Under the pieces are notes generated by a model. The model was not told the DNA's origin, did no database searches, and was given only the letters and a program-made list of their open reading frames with translations. A DNA stretch of 64,000 nucleotides from Pseudorhodobacter wandonensis (GTDB taxonomy: Bacteria; Pseudomonadota; Alphaproteobacteria; Rhodobacterales; Rhodobacteraceae): NCBI RefSeq assembly GCF_001202035.1, contig NZ_LGHT01000044.1, forward strand, positions 62,001 through 126,000, in the 5' to 3' direction. This document shows, one piece after another, positions 5,661-22,481 of this stretch. A program made the position numbers and the translations under genes. The stretch's first letter is position 1; the number at the start of each line of letters is the position of its first letter.

Positions 5661-6957
5661 TCTTACCCCCCGCGAAATCGTATCCGAACTCGACCGCTTT
5701 ATCATCGGCCAAAAAGAGGCCAAGCGTGCCGTCGCCGTTGCCCTGCGCAACCGCTGGCGCCGCAAACAGCTGGGCGACGATCTGCGCGATGAGGTGTATC
5801 CGAAAAACATCCTGATGATCGGACCAACCGGCGTTGGCAAAACCGAAATCAGTCGCCGTCTGGCCAAACTCGCCCGTGCGCCCTTTCTGAAAATAGAGGC
5901 AACCAAATTCACCGAGGTCGGCTATGTCGGCCGCGATGTCGATAGCATCATCCGCGATCTGGTAGACGCCGCGATGATCGACACCCGCGCCCATATGCGC
6001 GAAGACGTTAATGCCCGCGCCAAACTCGCCGCCGAAGACCGCGTGATCGAGGCAATCGCCGGCAAGGACGCGCGCGAACAAACCCGCGAAATGTTCCGCC
6101 GCAAACTAAAAGCGGGCGAGTTGGACGATACCGTGATCGAGCTTGAAATTGCCGACACCTCCAACCCTTTTGCCGCCTTTGACCCAACCGGCCAAGGTGG
6201 TGGCCAAATGGGTGGCATGATGAACCTTGGCGAGATCTTTGGCAAAATGGGCCGCACCCAAAAACGCCGCGTAACCGTCGCTGAAAGCCACGAGTTGCTG
6301 GTGTCAGAAGAGGCAGATAAACTGCTTGATGATGAGGCCGTTAAACTGGCAGCCCTAGAGGCCGTGCAAGAGAACGGCATTGTTTTCATTGACGAAATTG
6401 ACAAAGTTTGCGCCCGCGCCGATGCACGCGGCGCCGATGTTTCACGTGAAGGCGTGCAGCGCGACTTGCTGCCCTTGATCGAAGGCACAACCGTTTCCAC
6501 CAAACACGGCCCCGTCAAAACCGATCATATCCTGTTCATCGCAAGCGGCGCGTTCCACATCGCCAAACCCTCGGATCTTCTGCCCGAACTCCAAGGCCGC
6601 CTGCCGATCCGCGTCGAACTCCGCCCTCTCACCGAAGAAGACTTCGTCCGTATCCTGACCGAAACCGACAACGCCCTTACCTTGCAATACACCGCTCTGA
6701 TGGGCACCGAAGGCGTCACAGTTAACTTCACCGAGGATGGTATCAAGGCCCTCGCCCGCATCGCCGCCGAGGTGAACCAATCGGTCGAAAACATCGGCGC
6801 CCGCCGCCTATACACGGTGATCGAACGCGTCTTCGAAGACCTTTCCTTCAACGCCCCTGACCGCGATGGCGAAAGGGTTGAGGTTAACGCAAGTTTCGTC
6901 GAACAGCACCTGGGCGAGCTTTCCCGCTCCGCCGACCTGTCACGCTACGTCCTCTAA
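5653..6957 (+). CDS. hslU: ATP-dependent protease ATPase subunit HslU (ClpY)
   Basis: 434 residues, full length. HslU is the AAA+ hexameric unfoldase that feeds substrates to HslV. Visible are the N-terminal [17 protein letters not shown], Walker A GPTGVGKT (about 57-64), the pore loop in [12 protein letters not shown], an intermediate domain (about 110-240) with the glycine- and methionine-rich stretch [15 protein letters not shown], Walker B VFIDEID, and the C-terminal sensor region [14 protein letters not shown]. The C terminus LSRYVL matches the family tail that inserts into HslV. An imperfect parS-like sequence lies within it at 6438. Confidence 0.96.
6438..6453 (+). promoter_or_regulatory. 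Imperfect parS-like site inside hslU
   Basis: TGTTTCACGTGAAGGC matches the first 13 of 16 bases of the perfect parS consensus found three times further right. It is 7 kb left of the proposed origin. The palindrome is incomplete on one side, so ParB binding is uncertain and chance is possible. Confidence 0.3.
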
Positions 6958-11959: not shown

Positions 11960-12795
11960 AGCCCCATCACGGTGTCGCGCGTTTCCTCATCAACCTCGGG
12001 GCGCTGGCCGAACCAACGCTCAAAGCCTGGCGCGGCCTGATGCAACAACATGCCAAGACCGTCGACCGTTTTGCAGCCGCGCTCTGCTGCAACTGACAAG
12101 AATTCGGTTTGAATTGGCGTGTATACAAGGTCATTGACCAAGGCTTTGGGGTTCAGATTATCCAATGGGATATTCAACTCGGGCTTACCAATCATCCCCA
12201 AGGCCGTGGTATTGACCACTGTCACTGCATCATCCAGCATATGCGGGATTTGCACCCAATCAACAACCGTAATCTTGGCACCAAAATCGGCGCGCAATGC
12301 CTCGGCGCGGGCACGGGTACGGTTTGTTATGCGAATTTCAGGGGCACCAACCTCGATCAAGGCCGCAATTACCGCGCGGGCGGCACCACCGGCGCCAAAA
12401 ACCACGGCAGGGCCGGCCTTGGGCTGCCAATCAGGCGCGTGTTGCCGCAAGTTGGCTACAAAACCCGACCCATCAGTGTTGTCAGCATGAATTTTACCAT
12501 CACTGCGAAAAATCAACGTATTTGCAGCGCCGATCAGGGCCGCGCGATCCGTGACAATATCGGCCAAGCGGATGACGTTTTCTTTGTGCGGAATAGTGAC
12601 ATTCAGGCCAACAAACCCCATTCTGGGCAAAAGCCGCAACACCTCGGCCAAATCGCCTTGGCCGATATCCATCGGGATGTAATGGCCTTTGATGCCATAG
12701 CGTTTCAGCCAGTAATTATGTAAAATCGGCGAGCGGCTGTGTGCAATCGGTGATCCGATAACCCCTGCCAGTGGAATGCGCGGATGATCTGTCAT
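11956..12795 (-). CDS. aroE: Shikimate dehydrogenase (NADP+)
   Basis: 279 residues. Reduces 3-dehydroshikimate to shikimate in the chorismate pathway. Substrate-binding N terminus has [19 protein letters not shown] and [12 protein letters not shown] (catalytic Lys in the latter); ADNTDGSGF supplies the aspartate; the NADP-binding loop is [14 protein letters not shown] with the NRTRARA phosphate-binding arginines; VNTTALGM and [15 protein letters not shown] close the fold. ATGA overlaps at both ends place it in one operon with maf and coaE. Confidence 0.95.
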
Positions 12796-13394
12796 GTTTC
12801 AATAAATCCTCTTGATCTGAGATAGCCCAAGAGCGGCAACAGGGGAAGCCCAAGGATAGTAAAGTAATCGCCCTGTACAGCAGAAAACAGGCGAACGCCT
12901 TCGTGTTCCAGCAAATAGCAACCGGCCGTATGGCGGATGGTTTCCCAATTGTGGTCAACATACCCTGCCAAATAGCCGTCAGACACGTCATGCATGGTCA
13001 GCTGCGCCTTACCGATATGGCGCCAGACCGGCTCGCCCTGGTGATAGGTCACAATGGCGGACAATAGATGATGCGTTTGGCCGCGCAGCTGAGTAAGTTG
13101 GGAAATGGCCTCTTGTGAGTTTTCCGGCTTTCCCCATGTTTTTCCTTTGAAATCAAGAACTTGATCACATCCTATTACAAAGGCATCGGGGTTTTTCTCG
13201 GCCAGTTTACGGGCTTTCATTTCGGCCAGTAGGTCAGCGATATCTCGCGGCTTTGCACCCTCGGACTCTAGGCTGGCGCGAATAGCAGCCTCATCGATGC
13301 GGGCAGGGGCATGCAAAAAGGTAAGGCCAGCAGCATTTAGCAGCTGCACGCGGGTCTGGGATGACGTGGCAAGGATGATTTCTGGCGTGGCCAT
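12792..13394 (-). CDS. maf: Maf family nucleotide pyrophosphatase
   Basis: 200 residues. Maf proteins hydrolyse modified or canonical nucleoside triphosphates to monophosphates and act as house-cleaning enzymes. The N-terminal [15 protein letters not shown] corresponds to the family S-x-R motif, [17 protein letters not shown] is the mid-domain active-site segment, and [16 protein letters not shown] is the C-terminal motif. It is the first gene of the maf-aroE-coaE-dnaQ run and is divergent from hemJ across the proposed origin. Confidence 0.93.
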
Positions 13395-13787
13395 AGGTGT
13401 GAACAGTCCTGTGGAAAGTCTTGATATGTTCCGGCAAGCGGTTTTGTGGAGAACCTGGTATTTGGCCTTTGGTGTGGGTAAGGCAGGCTTTTTGTCAAGC
13501 TTGCAGGGAGGATATCCCCATGTGGAAAGTGGTTGGCCAGAGTTAGGGAGAACCTGTCAAAGAACCTCGTTGTTGATAAGTCATAGCTTTTGGGTGGTCG
13601 GTTAAAAAATTGAATCTGTTGTGTTTTTTCGCGATATTGTTGCTTTACTTACATCATTGTACACAAGACAAACTCTGTGGATGAAACTTGGGGCAAATTG
13701 CAGTATTCCCATATCCATAGGCCCATCTATTACTACATCTTTCTATAATACTTATATTTATAGGAAGTAAGGCAAAGGAAAAATCGA
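13395..13787. other. oriC: Candidate chromosomal replication origin (oriC)
   Basis: A 393-base gene-free gap between the divergent maf and hemJ genes. It holds seven 9-mers close to the DnaA box TTATNCACA or its complement: one mismatch at 13445, 13473, 13571, 13657 and 13676; two mismatches at 13410 and 13521. The right half is AT-rich (about 13601-13660 and 13725-13770), suitable for duplex unwinding. One GANTC methylation site (GAATC, 13612) is present. The neighbours are those that flank alphaproteobacterial origins, and parAB with three parS sites lies 3.3-9 kb to the right. No full CtrA palindrome is seen, and dnaA is not in the window. The hemJ promoter (TATAAT at 13744) is also here. 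Confidence 0.65.
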
Positions 13788-14237
13788 ATGACCTCGTTTC
13801 TGGCGGATGCGTATCTTTGGGTTAAAGCCCTGCATGTGATGGCAGTGATCACCTGGATGGCAGGGTTGTTCTATTTGCCACGTTTGTTTGTGTACCATGC
13901 CGAGCAGGTGAAGGCGGGCGAGCCAACTGACAAGCTGTTCCAAACCATGGAGATGAAACTGCTGCGGCTGATTATGAATCCTGCAATGCTTGCGACCTGG
14001 GGGTTTGGTTTGCTGTTGGTTTTTACGCCAGGGATTGTGGATTGGTCGATGGTTTGGCCCTGGACCAAAGCGGCATCAGTGATTGCAATGACGTGGTTCC
14101 ATATGTGGCTTGCAGCGCGTCGCAAGGATTTCGAGGCAGGGCAAAACCACCTGACGGGGCGGCGCTATCGGATGATGAATGAGCTGCCGACGGTTTTGAT
14201 GATCGTGATTGTGCTGTCGGTTATCGTCAAGTTTTAA
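13788..14237 (+). CDS. hemJ: Protoporphyrinogen IX oxidase HemJ
   Basis: 149 residues with four predicted membrane helices. HemJ is the non-flavin membrane protoporphyrinogen oxidase used by many Alphaproteobacteria in place of HemG or HemY; it makes protoporphyrin IX for heme. Conserved residues include the N-terminal histidine in VKALHVMAVITWMAGLFYLPRLFVYH, MEMKLLRLIMNPAM and WFHMWLAA, ending NELPTVLMI. A TATAAT box at 13744 and GGCAAAGGAA before the ATG support independent expression. Ferrochelatase, the next enzyme, is at 48194. Confidence 0.93.
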   Translation: MTSFLADAYLWVKALHVMAVITWMAGLFYLPRLFVYHAEQVKAGEPTDKLFQTMEMKLLRLIMNPAMLATWGFGLLLVFTPGIVDWSMVWPWTKAASVIAMTWFHMWLAARRKDFEAGQNHLTGRRYRMMNELPTVLMIVIVLSVIVKF

Positions 14238-17068: not shown

Positions 17069-18943
17069 ATGTTTCACGTGAAACAGTTTGACGTAATCGT
17101 AGTGGGCGGCGGGCACGCGGGATGTGAAGCTGCCGCGGTTTCGGCACGGATGGGTGCAAAAACTGCATTAATCACGCTGAAACGTGATTCATTGGGTGTA
17201 ATGTCGTGTAATCCTGCGATTGGCGGGCTTGGTAAGGGCCATCTTGTAAGAGAAATCGACGCTTTTGACGGGATAATGGGTGTAGCCGCCGATCAAGCCG
17301 GTATCCAGTTTAGGTTGTTAAATCATAGTAAGGGACCTGCTGTTCAGGGGCCCCGTATTCAAGCGGACAGAAAACTCTACCGCCGTGCAATTCAACAGAT
17401 TTTGTTCTCGACGCAGAACTTACAGGTGATTGAAGGCGAAGTGGTTGATTTTATTTTGAATGCTACGAGCATTCGTGGTGTGAAATTGCAGGATGGGGCG
17501 GAGGTTTTGTCTCATAGTGTGATTCTGACGGCCGGAACCTTCTTGAATGGCATTATCCATATCGGCGATCAAAGAAGCTCTGGCGGGCGGATTGGTGATC
17601 TGCCGTCTATTCAATTGGCGCAAAAGCTGGCAGAGTTCGGCTTTTCGAGGGGGCGCCTAAAGACCGGCACGCCGCCTCGCTTAGATGGAAAAACAATCGC
17701 TTGGGATAAACTTGAAGCGCAATCCGGTGACGCGGATCCCACCATGCTATCATTCTTGAGCGAAAATCCCACTGCCCGGCAAATCAGCTGTGGGATCACA
17801 GAAACAAATGAACGCACCCATGAAATTGTTCGTTCGAATTTATCGAGATCTGCGATGTACGGCGGGCATATCGAAGGGGTAGGCCCACGCTATTGCCCAT
17901 CAATTGAGGATAAGATCGTTCGCTTTGCTGATAAAACCTCGCATCAGATTTTCTTAGAACCAGAAGGTCTTGATGATGATACCGTTTATCCCAATGGGAT
18001 ATCTACGTCTTTGCCTGCTGACGTCCAAGAGGCATACGTCAGGTCGATCTCTGGACTGGAAAATACGGTTATTCTTCAGCCAGGCTACGCAATAGAATAC
18101 GATTTCTTTGATCCAAGGGGTCTTTCGCCCAGCCTGTCAGTAAAGGGTTTTTCTGGCCTCTATTTTGCCGGCCAGATTAATGGTACTACCGGATATGAGG
18201 AAGCTGCGGCGCAAGGTCTGGTTGCCGGGTCAAATGCTGCTGCTGCTGCACTTGGCCGTGACGAGGTTATGTTTAGTCGCGCAGACAGTTATATAGGCGT
18301 GATGATTGATGATCTGACGACGCGCGGGGTTTCGGAACCATATCGGATGTTTACCTCACGCGCTGAATATCGTTTGGTGTTGCGCGCTGACAATGCCGAT
18401 CAAAGATTGACGCCAAAGGGTATCGATATCGGGGCAGTTGGTGAGCATAGGAATAGGGCCTTTACCCAAAAGCTGGAGTCGTTGAGAGCCTGTAAGTCGC
18501 TATTAGAATCAATAACTTATACACCGCAGCAAATAGCCAAGGCTGGCTTCAAGGTGCGTCAAGATGGGTCCCGTCGTAGTGGATTTTCTATCCTCTCGCA
18601 ACTAGAAGGAGGGATTGTGAACATTTCTGAGAGCTTACCGGATTTCCCCCAAATTCCAGTTGCACATCTAACACAGCTTTGGCGCGAGTCATTGTATGCC
18701 AACTACTCGGATAGACAGGCAAATGAAGCGGCAAAATTGAAACGTGATGAGGATACTCGTATCCCTGAGTGCTTTGACTATTCAAATCTTGCCGGGCTCT
18801 CTCGCGAGCTGTGCCTTAAGTTGCAAGCCCATCGCCCGTCATCTATTGCTCAGGCCAGCCGGATTGAAGGAATGACACCTTCGGCCTTAGTTCTAATTCT
18901 CTCACGCTTGAAAAGTGGTCAAGACAGGCGCAATGTTGTATGA
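17069..18943 (+). CDS. mnmG: tRNA uridine-5-carboxymethylaminomethyl(34) synthesis enzyme MnmG (GidA)
   Basis: 624 residues. FAD enzyme and partner of MnmE. The dinucleotide-binding motif [14 protein letters not shown] follows immediately after MFHVKQ; further signatures are [32 protein letters not shown] and [13 protein letters not shown]. The C-terminal helical domain ends normally. ATG 17069 is embedded in a perfect parS site, so the first residues are dictated by the centromere sequence. A TTG at 17051 is rejected because it lies in mnmE. The end overlaps rsmG in an ATGA. Confidence 0.96.
17070..17085. promoter_or_regulatory. parS: parS site 1 (ParB-binding centromere), at the mnmG start
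   Basis: TGTTTCACGTGAAACA is a perfect 16-base palindrome identical to the widely conserved bacterial parS consensus. It starts one base into the mnmG start codon. Confidence 0.93.
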
Positions 18944-19566
18944 ATGGCTTTGATTTGGATGACGTGCCAGGCCTCAATGTTTCACGTGAAACAGTAGAGA
19001 GGCTCAAAGCATACGACCAGCTGGTACGGAAGTGGAATCCCACGATTAATCTTGCCTCCAAACAAAGCATAAGCGAACTTTGGAGCCGTCACATTGTGGA
19101 CTCCGCGCAGATTTTTCCACACATTCCGGCGAGCTCAAATCTCTGCCTGGATGTTGGAAGTGGTGGAGGATTTCCTGGAATCGTTCTGGCTACAATTTCG
19201 ACTGAGCATGTTCCAACACGTCGATTTATCCTTGTTGAATCAGATCAGCGAAAAGCTGCCTTTCTAAGGGAAGTGATCCGTAGCCTTAAACTGAGGGCCG
19301 AAGTACGATCAGAACGTATTGAATCGCTCGAAAAAATTGGGGCAGACTTTTTTACAGCTAGGGCTTTAGCGCCATTGTCAAAGCTTTTGGCATTTGCGCA
19401 TCAACATTTATCCCTACAAGGTGTATGTATTTTTCCAAAAGGCGAAAATCACCTAGAAGAGATAAAAGTGGCTCAAAAACTATTTCGCTTTGAATATCAA
19501 TCTATTCAAAGCCTTACAGACCCAAGAAGCGCAATCTTAAGAATTTACGGAATTGAAAATGCCTGA
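18940..19566 (+). CDS. rsmG: 16S rRNA (guanine(527)-N7)-methyltransferase RsmG
   Basis: 208 residues. SAM-dependent methyltransferase (GidB) with the glycine-rich motif [28 protein letters not shown], and [14 protein letters not shown]. The start overlaps mnmG (ATGA) and the end overlaps parA by 8 bases. A perfect parS site (18978) encodes NVSRETV near the N terminus. The last 180 bases (19381-19560) contain only 63 G+C, far lower than neighbouring genes, although the protein remains plausible to the end. Confidence 0.94.
18978..18993. promoter_or_regulatory. parS: parS site 2, inside rsmG
   Basis: A perfect TGTTTCACGTGAAACA palindrome in the first tenth of rsmG, about 1.9 kb right of site 1 and 0.6 kb left of parA. 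Confidence 0.93.
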
Positions 19567-20380
19567 GACACATATCGAGAATGCGCCACGTATTATTGCC
19601 CTTACAAACCAAAAAGGGGGCGTCGCAAAAACGACGACCACAATCAATCTGGCAGCGGGGCTTGCCGAACTCGGCTCCAAAGTATTGGTTATAGATCTCG
19701 ATCCTCAGGGAAATGCGTCGACCGGTTTGGGTGTCGAGGTCGCAAGCCGTGGTTTGACAACCTATGATCTGATGGTTGAGGATGCGCCACTCGATCAGGT
19801 GGTAAATGCCACTGGCGTTGATGGCATTTTTATCTGTCCTGCCAATTCCGATCTTTCTTCGGCCGATATGGAAATGATCTCGAATGAAAAGCGCAGCTTT
19901 TTGCTACATGATGCGCTGCGCCAACCTGCTATGGCGGGTTTTGGCTTTGATTTTATTCTCATCGACTGCCCACCATCGCTTAATCTTCTCACTGTCAATG
20001 CGCTTGTTGCCTGTCACTCTGTGCTCATTCCTCTTCAAAGCGAGTTTTTCGCTTTAGAAGGCCTGTCTCAACTTATGCTTACAGTTCGGGAAATCCGTCA
20101 GACGGCCAATAGTGACCTGCGTATCGAAGGCGTTTTGCTGACAATGTATGATAAGCGCAACAATCTATCGCAGCTGGTTGAGGCAGATGCACGTGAGAAT
20201 CTGGGCGAATTGGTCTTTGAAACCGTTATTCCGCGCAATGTTCGGGTCAGTGAGGCGCCGTCCTATGCTTTACCTGTTCTCATTTATGATTCGGCGTCAA
20301 AAGGGTCCGAGGCTTACCGCGCTCTTTCGAAAGAGATTGCCGGGCGTTATGGTTTGAAAATGCGAAAGAACGAGGTGTGA
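19559..20380 (+). CDS. parA: Chromosome-partitioning ATPase ParA (Soj)
   Basis: 273 residues. Deviant Walker A motif NQKGGVAKTTTTINLAAGLA, the DLDPQGNASTGLG segment and DFILIDCPPSL identify a chromosomal ParA of the short type, with no N-terminal helix-turn-helix. It forms ATP-dependent nucleoid gradients that move ParB-parS complexes. ATG 19559 overlaps the rsmG stop by 8 bases; a TTG two codons upstream is less likely. parB begins 4 bases after its stop. Confidence 0.96.
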   Translation: MPETHIENAPRIIALTNQKGGVAKTTTTINLAAGLAELGSKVLVIDLDPQGNASTGLGVEVASRGLTTYDLMVEDAPLDQVVNATGVDGIFICPANSDLSSADMEMISNEKRSFLLHDALRQPAMAGFGFDFILIDCPPSLNLLTVNALVACHSVLIPLQSEFFALEGLSQLMLTVREIRQTANSDLRIEGVLLTMYDKRNNLSQLVEADARENLGELVFETVIPRNVRVSEAPSYALPVLIYDSASKGSEAYRALSKEIAGRYGLKMRKNEV

Positions 20381-20384
20381 TCTG

Positions 20385-21293
20385 ATGGAAAAAAAGCATG
20401 AACGACGCGGCTTGGGTCGGGGGCTGTCGGCTCTGATGTCAGATATCAATCTGGCACCTGAGAATGTGGGTGAGGCTCAGGCCAGTAAACGTCAAGAGTT
20501 GCTTATTGCAGTTGAAAAATTGGTTCCGAACCCAAACCAGCCGCGGCGCGATTTCACCCGTGAGGCGTTGGAAAGCCTTGCCGCGTCTATCAAGCAAAAG
20601 GGCATACTTCAGCCGCTGATTGTGCGGCCAATTGCAGGGTCAGACACCTATGAAATTGTTGCGGGCGAGCGTCGTTGGCGCGCTGCCCAGATTGCCCAGC
20701 TTCACAAACTTCCCGCCATAGTACGCAATTTTGACGATACCGAGGTGCTGGAAGTCGCAATTATCGAGAACATTCAACGCGCAGACCTGAATGCAATTGA
20801 AGAGGCCGCCGGCTTCCGCCAGTTGATGGACCGTTTTGGGCACACCCAAGAAAAGATCGCTGAAGCACTCTCGAAAAGCCGCAGCCATATTGCGAACCTG
20901 CTTCGTTTGCTCAATCTGCCGGGTGATGTGCAGGGTCTTATCCGCGACGGCAGCCTTACCGCTGGCCACGCACGGGCACTTATCAATACTACTGACCCTT
21001 CGAGCCTGGCTAAGACGATCATTGAAAAAGGCCTTTCGGTGCGTGAGACCGAAAAGCTGGCACGTGAAACATCTACGACCCGGCCGAGACCAAAGGGGGC
21101 GGCTGGGCATGCGCGGTCTGAGAAAGACGCGGATACACGTGCCCTCGAGGCTGATCTGGCCGCAAACCTTAGGATGGCCGTCAGTATTAATCATGAGCCA
21201 GGCGGCGAGCGCGGCACATTGTCTATTCGTTATAATACCTTGGATGATCTGGACAACTTGTGTCGTACCTTGTCGCAAATGGATCGCGAATAG
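20385..21293 (+). CDS. parB: Chromosome-partitioning protein ParB (parS-binding CTPase clamp)
   Basis: 302 residues. The basic N terminus RRGLGRGLSALM probably contacts ParA. The CTPase domain carries NPNQPRRDF and GERRWRAAQ, followed by ENIQRADLNAIEEA and a helix-turn-helix region (TQEKIAEALSKSRSHIANLLRL) that reads parS. The C-terminal ~45 residues form the dimerisation domain. It ends 9 bases before the convergent hemW stop. Confidence 0.96.
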   Translation: MEKKHERRGLGRGLSALMSDINLAPENVGEAQASKRQELLIAVEKLVPNPNQPRRDFTREALESLAASIKQKGILQPLIVRPIAGSDTYEIVAGERRWRAAQIAQLHKLPAIVRNFDDTEVLEVAIIENIQRADLNAIEEAAGFRQLMDRFGHTQEKIAEALSKSRSHIANLLRLLNLPGDVQGLIRDGSLTAGHARALINTTDPSSLAKTIIEKGLSVRETEKLARETSTTRPRPKGAAGHARSEKDADTRALEADLAANLRMAVSINHEPGGERGTLSIRYNTLDDLDNLCRTLSQMDRE

Positions 21294-21302
21294 GGTTTCG
21301 CG

Positions 21303-22481
21303 TCACTCCATCAGGTTTTCGATAACCGCGTTCAAGACGAGCCGCCCTTGCTGTGTTGCAATGAGGCGGCTTTCTTTTATCTCAACCATACCAAGGCCGC
21401 GGAGCAGATCTATCTTTTGTTCTGAAATTTGCTGCCCGGAAATGCGATAGTACCGCTCTAGATCGATTCCTGTGTCTCGTCGCAAACCCATCAAAAGATA
21501 TTCAGTACCTTGTTCAACCGGCTGAATACGCTCTCTTTTTTCAACAGAACCAAGTGTTTCAACTCCCGTAAGCCAATCTACCGGATTAGAAATGGCTTCT
21601 GTCGACATCCTTACGTTGCCCAAGGTCAGTCTGCCATGAGCGCCCGGACCAATGCCTATATAGTCGCCGGCATTCCAATAAATGCAGTTGTGTTTGGCGT
21701 CATGGCCACTCTTGGCGTAATTCGAAATCTCATATGACCGATAGCCCGCTGCTTCCGTTAGTTCTTGGGTCAAGAGATACATATCGGCGCCAAGGTCTTC
21801 ATTTGGCAATCCGCGCAAAAGGCCGCGCTTAAACCGGTCACCGAAGGCCGTACCATCCTCTATCGTCAGTTGGTAAAGCGAAAGGTGGCCACTTGCCAAA
21901 GAAAGGGCTTCGGTTAGCTCGGCCTTCCAGCTGATCAGGTCTTGATTTTGCCGCGCATAGATCAAATCAAAACTGACGCGGTCAAATACGCTTTGCGCCA
22001 ATGCGATGGCTCGCTTTGCCTCACTCACATCGTGCAGGCGCCCTAATGCCTTTAGATCGGGGTCATTCAGGGCTTGCACACCAATGGACACGCGGTTAAC
22101 CCCTGCGGCCGAATAGCCTCGAAAGCGATCACTTTCAACCGATCCGGGGTTTGCCTCCATAGTAATCTCAAGGTCATTCGATGTTGGCCATGTGCCCTTG
22201 ATCCTTGAGATTATCGCGTGGACCAGTTCCGGCGCCATTAGCGATGGGGTGCCACCGCCAAAGAAAACCGTCTGCAGCACTCTGCCACTTGTTTCTGTGC
22301 CAAAGCGTTCAATTTCTGAAAGATACGCAGCTTCCCACCGCTTTTGGTCGAGGCTGGCTGAAACATGGCTGTTAAAATCGCAATACGGGCATTTTGATTG
22401 GCAGAACGGCCAATGAATATACAACCCAAATCCACCTGTCTGCCAATCTTCTACTGCGGGAAACTGTTTCACGTGAAACAA
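21303..22481 (-). CDS. hemW: Heme chaperone HemW (HemN-like radical SAM protein)
   Basis: 392 residues. Radical-SAM cluster motif FCQSKCPYCDF sits near the N terminus with HWPF before it; FFGGGTPSLM, EANPGS and GVNRVSIGVQALND follow. HemW-type proteins lack the extra N-terminal residues of true coproporphyrinogen dehydrogenase HemN and are thought to insert heme into respiratory enzymes. The best start is TTG 22481, giving MFHVKQ inside a perfect parS site; GTG 22472 is the alternative. It overlaps the end of rdgB by 13 bases. Confidence 0.9.
   Translation of the reverse strand: MFHVKQFPAVEDWQTGGFGLYIHWPFCQSKCPYCDFNSHVSASLDQKRWEAAYLSEIERFGTETSGRVLQTVFFGGGTPSLMAPELVHAIISRIKGTWPTSNDLEITMEANPGSVESDRFRGYSAAGVNRVSIGVQALNDPDLKALGRLHDVSEAKRAIALAQSVFDRVSFDLIYARQNQDLISWKAELTEALSLASGHLSLYQLTIEDGTAFGDRFKRGLLRGLPNEDLGADMYLLTQELTEAAGYRSYEISNYAKSGHDAKHNCIYWNAGDYIGIGPGAHGRLTLGNVRMSTEAISNPVDWLTGVETLGSVEKRERIQPVEQGTEYLLMGLRRDTGIDLERYYRISGQQISEQKIDLLRGLGMVEIKESRLIATQQGRLVLNAVIENLME
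22465..22480. promoter_or_regulatory. parS: parS site 3, in the hemW start / rdgB end overlap
   Basis: A perfect TGTTTCACGTGAAACA palindrome, 1.2 kb right of parB. It is coding in two frames at once: the N terminus of HemW and the last residues (GCFT) of RdgB. Confidence 0.93.

Follow-up and report, generated by a model that had tools for sequence, protein, structure and literature searches.

A candidate chromosomal replication origin in the divergent maf/hemJ gap of Pseudorhodobacter wandonensis

The maf/hemJ gap and its surroundings

The window analyzed here is a stretch of 64,000 nucleotides of Pseudorhodobacter wandonensis (G000:C44:62001-126000), drawn from a draft genome of 3,887,441 bases in 45 contigs; the contig that carries it, C44, is 550,524 bases long. 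Among the matches listed, the best-matching named relatives of its HemJ belong to Pseudorhodobacter, with P. ferrugineus at 86%. Within the window, a maf-like gene and hemJ point away from each other across an intergenic gap of 393 bases (Table 1), which an earlier reading of the DNA, made from the letters alone (the sequence-only reading), had put forward as a candidate chromosomal origin at the divergence of a maf-aroE-coaE-dnaQ block and a hemJ-rho block. That arrangement stands for HemJ, Rho, AroE and DnaQ, which exceed their NCBIfam cut-offs, as do MnmE, MnmG, RsmG and ParB (TIGR00180); the Maf-like and ParA-like proteins give clear NCBIfam matches that stay under the cut-offs.

The same reading had placed parAB and three parS sites near the gap, and these were recovered as three perfect palindromes located 3.3-8.7 kb past the gap, around a parB gene and its parA-like neighbor. 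At one mismatch or fewer, they are the only parS sites found in the 3.89-Mb draft. Likewise, one to three parS sites were found in 64 of the 67 full-length loci of relatives, all of them 3-10 kb away on the hemJ side. A parS-like site with three mismatches is present on the opposite side of the gap (window positions 6438-6453) and may be there by chance.

A gene with a strong DnaA match is also encoded on C44, approximately 252 kb from the gap. Besides DnaA, PF00308 gave eleven matches of 25-34 bits, all of them no more than about 500 bases from a contig end (e.g., L003-L009), and these probably represent an insertion-sequence ATPase whose repeats interrupted the assembly.

Table 1. Positions of the candidate origin, its sequence elements and the neighboring genes and sites, numbered from the first letter of the window.
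Feature	Position	Strand	Remark
maf-like gene, left flank	12792-13394	-	below curated NCBIfam cut-off
oriC candidate, whole divergent maf/hemJ gap	13395-13787		393 bases
weak DnaA box, 2 mismatches, CTTTCCACA	13410-13418	-	maf end; minus-strand box common there in relatives
DnaA box, 1 mismatch, TTCTCCACA	13445-13453	-	
DnaA box, 1 mismatch, TTACCCACA	13473-13481	-	
possible -35 (TTGACA) of maf promoter	13493-13498	-	inference
weak DnaA box, 2 mismatches, CTTTCCACA	13521-13529	-	
DnaA box, 1 mismatch, TTATCAACA	13571-13579	-	
DnaA box, 1 mismatch, TTGTACACA	13657-13665	+	
DnaA box, 1 mismatch, TCATCCACA	13676-13684	-	
module box ATATCCATA, 2 mismatches	13711-13719	+	TTATCCATA or TTATCCACA here in several relatives
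GGCCC	13720-13724	+	opens 7-base spacer
likely DNA unwinding element	13725-13775		least stable 51-mer of window, second on C44
candidate DnaA-trios CTA-TTA-CTA	13727-13735	+	bottom strand 3'-GAT AAT GAT-5'
hemJ, right flank	13788-14237	+	TIGR00701 over cut-off
parS, perfect palindrome	17070-17085	+	
parS, perfect palindrome	18978-18993	+	
parA-like gene	19559-20380	+	under curated cut-offs
parB	20385-21293	+	TIGR00180 over cut-off
parS, perfect palindrome	22465-22480	+	

Loci of relatives were obtained by a search of genome contigs, from which 80 of 251 were kept. In 79 of these 80, maf and hemJ diverge across a gap of 371-448 bases, and the contig of the remaining one (L081) ends before maf; that locus is left out of the gap counts, which throughout refer to 79 relatives plus the window, or 80 gaps. 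The ends of the relatives' gaps were extrapolated from BLAST starts, and three rows of the gap alignment (A1) overrun the flanking genes by one to six bases.

The layout of the gap is more widely conserved than its DNA letters. Searched with blastn, the window's gap matches only six of the 79 others, all labelled Pseudorhodobacter; in three of the six (L012, L013 and L023), the match, of 83-86% across 47-58 bases, sits at the hemJ end. An apparent conservation of the gap across genera, with matches in 67 of 198 family genomes, was dropped, as nearly all of the matches sit inside hemJ and are therefore uninformative on the gap; one of the 67 (G151) extends beyond a few bases into it.

DnaA boxes and regulatory motifs

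Five 9-mers in the gap, all but one on the minus strand, differ by one mismatch from the DnaA box TTATNCACA; no perfect TTATNCACA was found within the gap. Counted again, the five one-mismatch boxes of the sequence-only reading are all there; its two further boxes at two mismatches become nine. By the window average, 0.21 sites at one mismatch or fewer are expected per 393 bases, and dinucleotide shuffles of the gap gave a mean of 0.49 and a maximum of 4, with five reached in 0 of 2000. The gap has the highest box density on C44, and five such boxes are reached nowhere else on that contig.

Sites that titrate or reactivate DnaA are clusters of DnaA boxes too, and the boxes of the gap are weak, as they might be if the gap were a site of this kind close to, rather than at, the origin. 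A separate origin cluster would then be sought elsewhere; however, no second stretch with four one-mismatch boxes per 393 bases occurs in the first 400 kb of C44, so none is seen there, and the gap itself also holds unstable DNA and a trio-like tract (next section). We consider a titrating or reactivating site very improbable and continue with the gap as a candidate origin.

The enrichment extends to relatives. Across the 80 gaps, boxes at one mismatch or fewer average 3.26 versus 0.33 in shuffles, and perfect boxes average 0.51 versus 0.008; three gaps (L020, L059 and L078) have no box at one mismatch or fewer. Boxes have preferred locations: those on the minus strand favor the maf end and a place about 70% of the way along, and those on the plus strand favor the 40-80% range. 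The window's gap shows this pattern only in part.

No CtrA palindrome had been noticed in the gap by the sequence-only reading, and our scan agrees: it counted zero TTAAN7TTAA, zero IHF consensus sites and zero GATC, alongside one GANTC and one TTAACC. Among the 80 gaps, TTAAN7TTAA is present in eight (L020, L049, L056, L066, L068, L072, L074 and L087; shuffle mean 0.8, maximum 6) and IHF sites are present in six (shuffle mean 1.84, maximum 5). Because both motifs exceed the shuffles in a minority of gaps, we do not claim their absence from the Rhodobacteraceae, and CtrA control may persist in some of the members that carry the palindrome.

The gap could also serve transcription. TGTCAA, which reads TTGACA on the maf strand, is perhaps the -35 element of maf in the window; it occurs in 27 of the 80 gaps, and 25 of its 28 hits lie 74-102 bases from maf. 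This placement would suit a gap that is solely the divergent promoter region of maf and hemJ, with DnaA acting there as a transcription regulator, a role also described for it in Caulobacter (PMC3193534), and with the true origin elsewhere near parAB. Yet the length of the gap is almost constant across the 79 relatives, nowhere else in the window is the DNA as unstable, the one strict box-plus-trio match of the contig falls within the gap, and no other 393-base stretch of C44 equals its number of boxes. We therefore regard an exclusive promoter function as improbable; promoter and origin roles may coexist in the gap.

Unstable DNA, the hemJ-end module and strand skew

The AT-rich stretches previously noted in the gap are borne out by its GC content of 0.415 and by the least stable 51-mer of the window, a likely DNA unwinding element at the hemJ end. 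There, the order is ATATCCATA-GGCCCAT-CTATTACTA, followed by AT-rich DNA. This combination of a DnaA box, GGCCC and a trinucleotide tract (13711-13735), which the sequence-only reading did not mention, resembles the published basal unwinding system (BUS). The BUS rule comprises a DnaA box with at most two mismatches, a spacer of at most 16 bases and at least three trios with a central A (PMC8287927), and the gap contains ATATCCATA, a 7-base spacer and CTA TTA CTA.

We searched for this module with patterns of differing strictness. A strict pattern of box, spacer and trios, with a trio set (CTA/TTA/CTT) picked once the sequences had been seen, has one match in all when both strands of C44 are scanned, located in the gap, and is present in 2 of the 80 gaps. 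The strict trio set comes from the B. subtilis origin. A looser rule, re-coded from the published one for a single box, is matched on the hemJ-facing strand in 50 of the 80 gaps and on the other strand in 18 (spacer 0-16; shuffle mean 10.8, maximum 18); with a spacer of 3-16, the counts are 45 and 16, respectively, the latter being 15 in a scan that kept further inside the gap ends. At the hemJ end, CATCATC occurs on the hemJ-facing strand in 40 of the 80 gaps and on the other in none, and some trinucleotide tract, by a pattern picked after inspecting the sequences, occurs in 76 of the 80 versus 11. Among 30 hemJ loci (49 of 57 class genomes matched), one narrow pattern recovered the module at the window's own locus only, and the strict module was found near none of 30 hemE loci (50 of 57 genomes matched); since the flanks of these loci span just 1.5 kb, both results are weak evidence that the module is absent.

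Whole-genome skew had been named by the sequence-only reading as a check that could count against an origin here, and its outcome is mixed. For the genome itself, the profile covers C44, one of the 45 contigs. The keto-skew minimum (75,038) is to the left of the gap, 357 bases from it; the GC-skew minimum (97,093) is to the right, 21.3 kb away, in a shallow trough that is 185 counts deeper than the value at the gap. When a single change point is fitted to the skew of the contig, the best one is at 512-516 kb, away from the gap.

The skew of three single-contig relatives rests on a sample of 20-40 stretches, each 20 kb long. Two of these relatives, G123 and G141, are the single-contig genomes with a match among the matches listed, a listing that leaves out 111 genomes, and their net skew of -0.01 was left in; G003, a single-contig genome without a match, was left out. 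In G141, the GC minimum falls in the stretch of the gap, the maximum is at 1.98 Mb (2.06 expected) and the keto minimum is about 0.26 Mb off. In chromosome 1 of Luteovulum azotoformans, the GC minimum is one stretch from the gap and the maximum is at 0.96 Mb (0.93 expected), with a keto minimum about 0.4 Mb off and a skew that is almost flat for 0.4 Mb beyond the gap. In G123, the sampled GC and keto minima are both at 2.83 Mb, approximately 370 kb from the gap; a local turn to positive skew comes some 30 kb beyond the gap, 3.38 Mb is also below this local turn in GC, and the maximum is at 0.64-0.72 Mb (0.71 expected). Overall, the skews fit an origin in the region, broadly rather than exactly, and do not fix its position.

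The box cluster, the least stable DNA, the only parS sites found and a gap layout shared by 79 relatives are consistent with one another and support the origin proposed by the sequence-only reading. Judged from these sequence features, we estimate a probability of roughly 0.93 that this gap serves as the oriC of the chromosome. In the mechanism that we propose, DnaA-ATP would bind the cluster of weak boxes across 13410-13684, and a DnaA filament beginning at the module box would extend past GGCCC onto the bottom strand of the trinucleotide tract and melt the AT-rich element; the helicase would be loaded at that element (13725-13775), two forks would depart, and ParB on the three parS sites would then separate the new origins. 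Within the oriC reading, we lean modestly towards such a trio-based opening. Such a placement of the replication start would allow a correct reading of gene dosage and strand bias in this genome, and of its par system, and the hemJ-end module would offer a clean test of box-plus-trio unwinding in alphaproteobacteria without a CtrA palindrome at the origin.

Comparison with known origins

The hemJ-end module shares with BUS (PMC8287927, PMC6669920) a DnaA box, a short spacer, a trinucleotide tract and AT-rich DNA, all inside the published mismatch and spacer limits. It differs in having no more than three clear trios and in that the CATCATC of 40 of the 80 gaps, read in the central-A phase, gives 3'-TAG-5' in place of the consensus 3'-GAT-5'. 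Among the open-licence papers that the searches listed, we saw no description of such a module in Rhodobacteraceae, and the predictions made over DoriC in PMC8287927 may well include it.

Cori of Caulobacter crescentus is described as having hemE on one side and COG1806 on the other, and as carrying five CtrA sites plus one for IHF (PMC1914354). Like the gap, it is intergenic and holds DnaA boxes as well as AT-rich DNA; unlike Cori, the gap is flanked by maf and hemJ, with hemE on a different contig (C26), and has neither the CtrA nor the IHF consensus. A search for a COG1806-family gene (PF03618), positive in Caulobacter as a control, found none in the P. wandonensis draft, whose completeness is scored at 100%. 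The Caulobacter-like gene order suggested from the sequence is accordingly only partly right, since hemE and COG1806 do not flank the gap, and by its flanks the gap is not a Cori of the Caulobacter/Rickettsia type. Several other families have hemE at a distance of 1.05-1.3 kb before hemJ (G198, G220, G221, G232 and G243), and at least four boxes are present within 400 bases upstream of 12 of 30 hemE loci, or 13 if L239, with four boxes, is counted. From these two observations, the gap is probably the counterpart of Cori with its flanks changed.

A more speculative proposal, which we hold to be rather unlikely as a whole, is that the Rhodobacteraceae origin is derived: it would have left the hemE/COG1806 setting, would mostly lack CtrA palindromes (a minority keeping one) and would hold its length at about 400 bases, with a one-sided opening module at the hemJ end, where roughly half of the members have a CATCATC repeat as trio tract; this repeat, best read as 3'-TAG-5', could mean that DnaA reads a trio other than that of B. 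subtilis.

Finally, the position of the gap has a precedent within the family, for which 101 origins have been assigned by Ori-Finder (PMC6699656). OriC1 of Rhodobacter sphaeroides was, as described, placed by GC skew together with replication and partition loci (PMC6315104). For Ketogulonicigenium vulgare Hbe602, an origin directly beside maf was predicted and, from DoriC, reported as conserved in Rhodobacteraceae (PMC4793288); the predicted origin adjoins maf as the gap does here, and we found no difference from it in that account. The maf-adjacent type of oriC calls for an origin-like gap adjoining maf in a member of the Rhodobacteraceae, which is what the window contains. A maf-adjacent origin in this family is already published (PMC4793288), and the gap of P. 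wandonensis is one more case.
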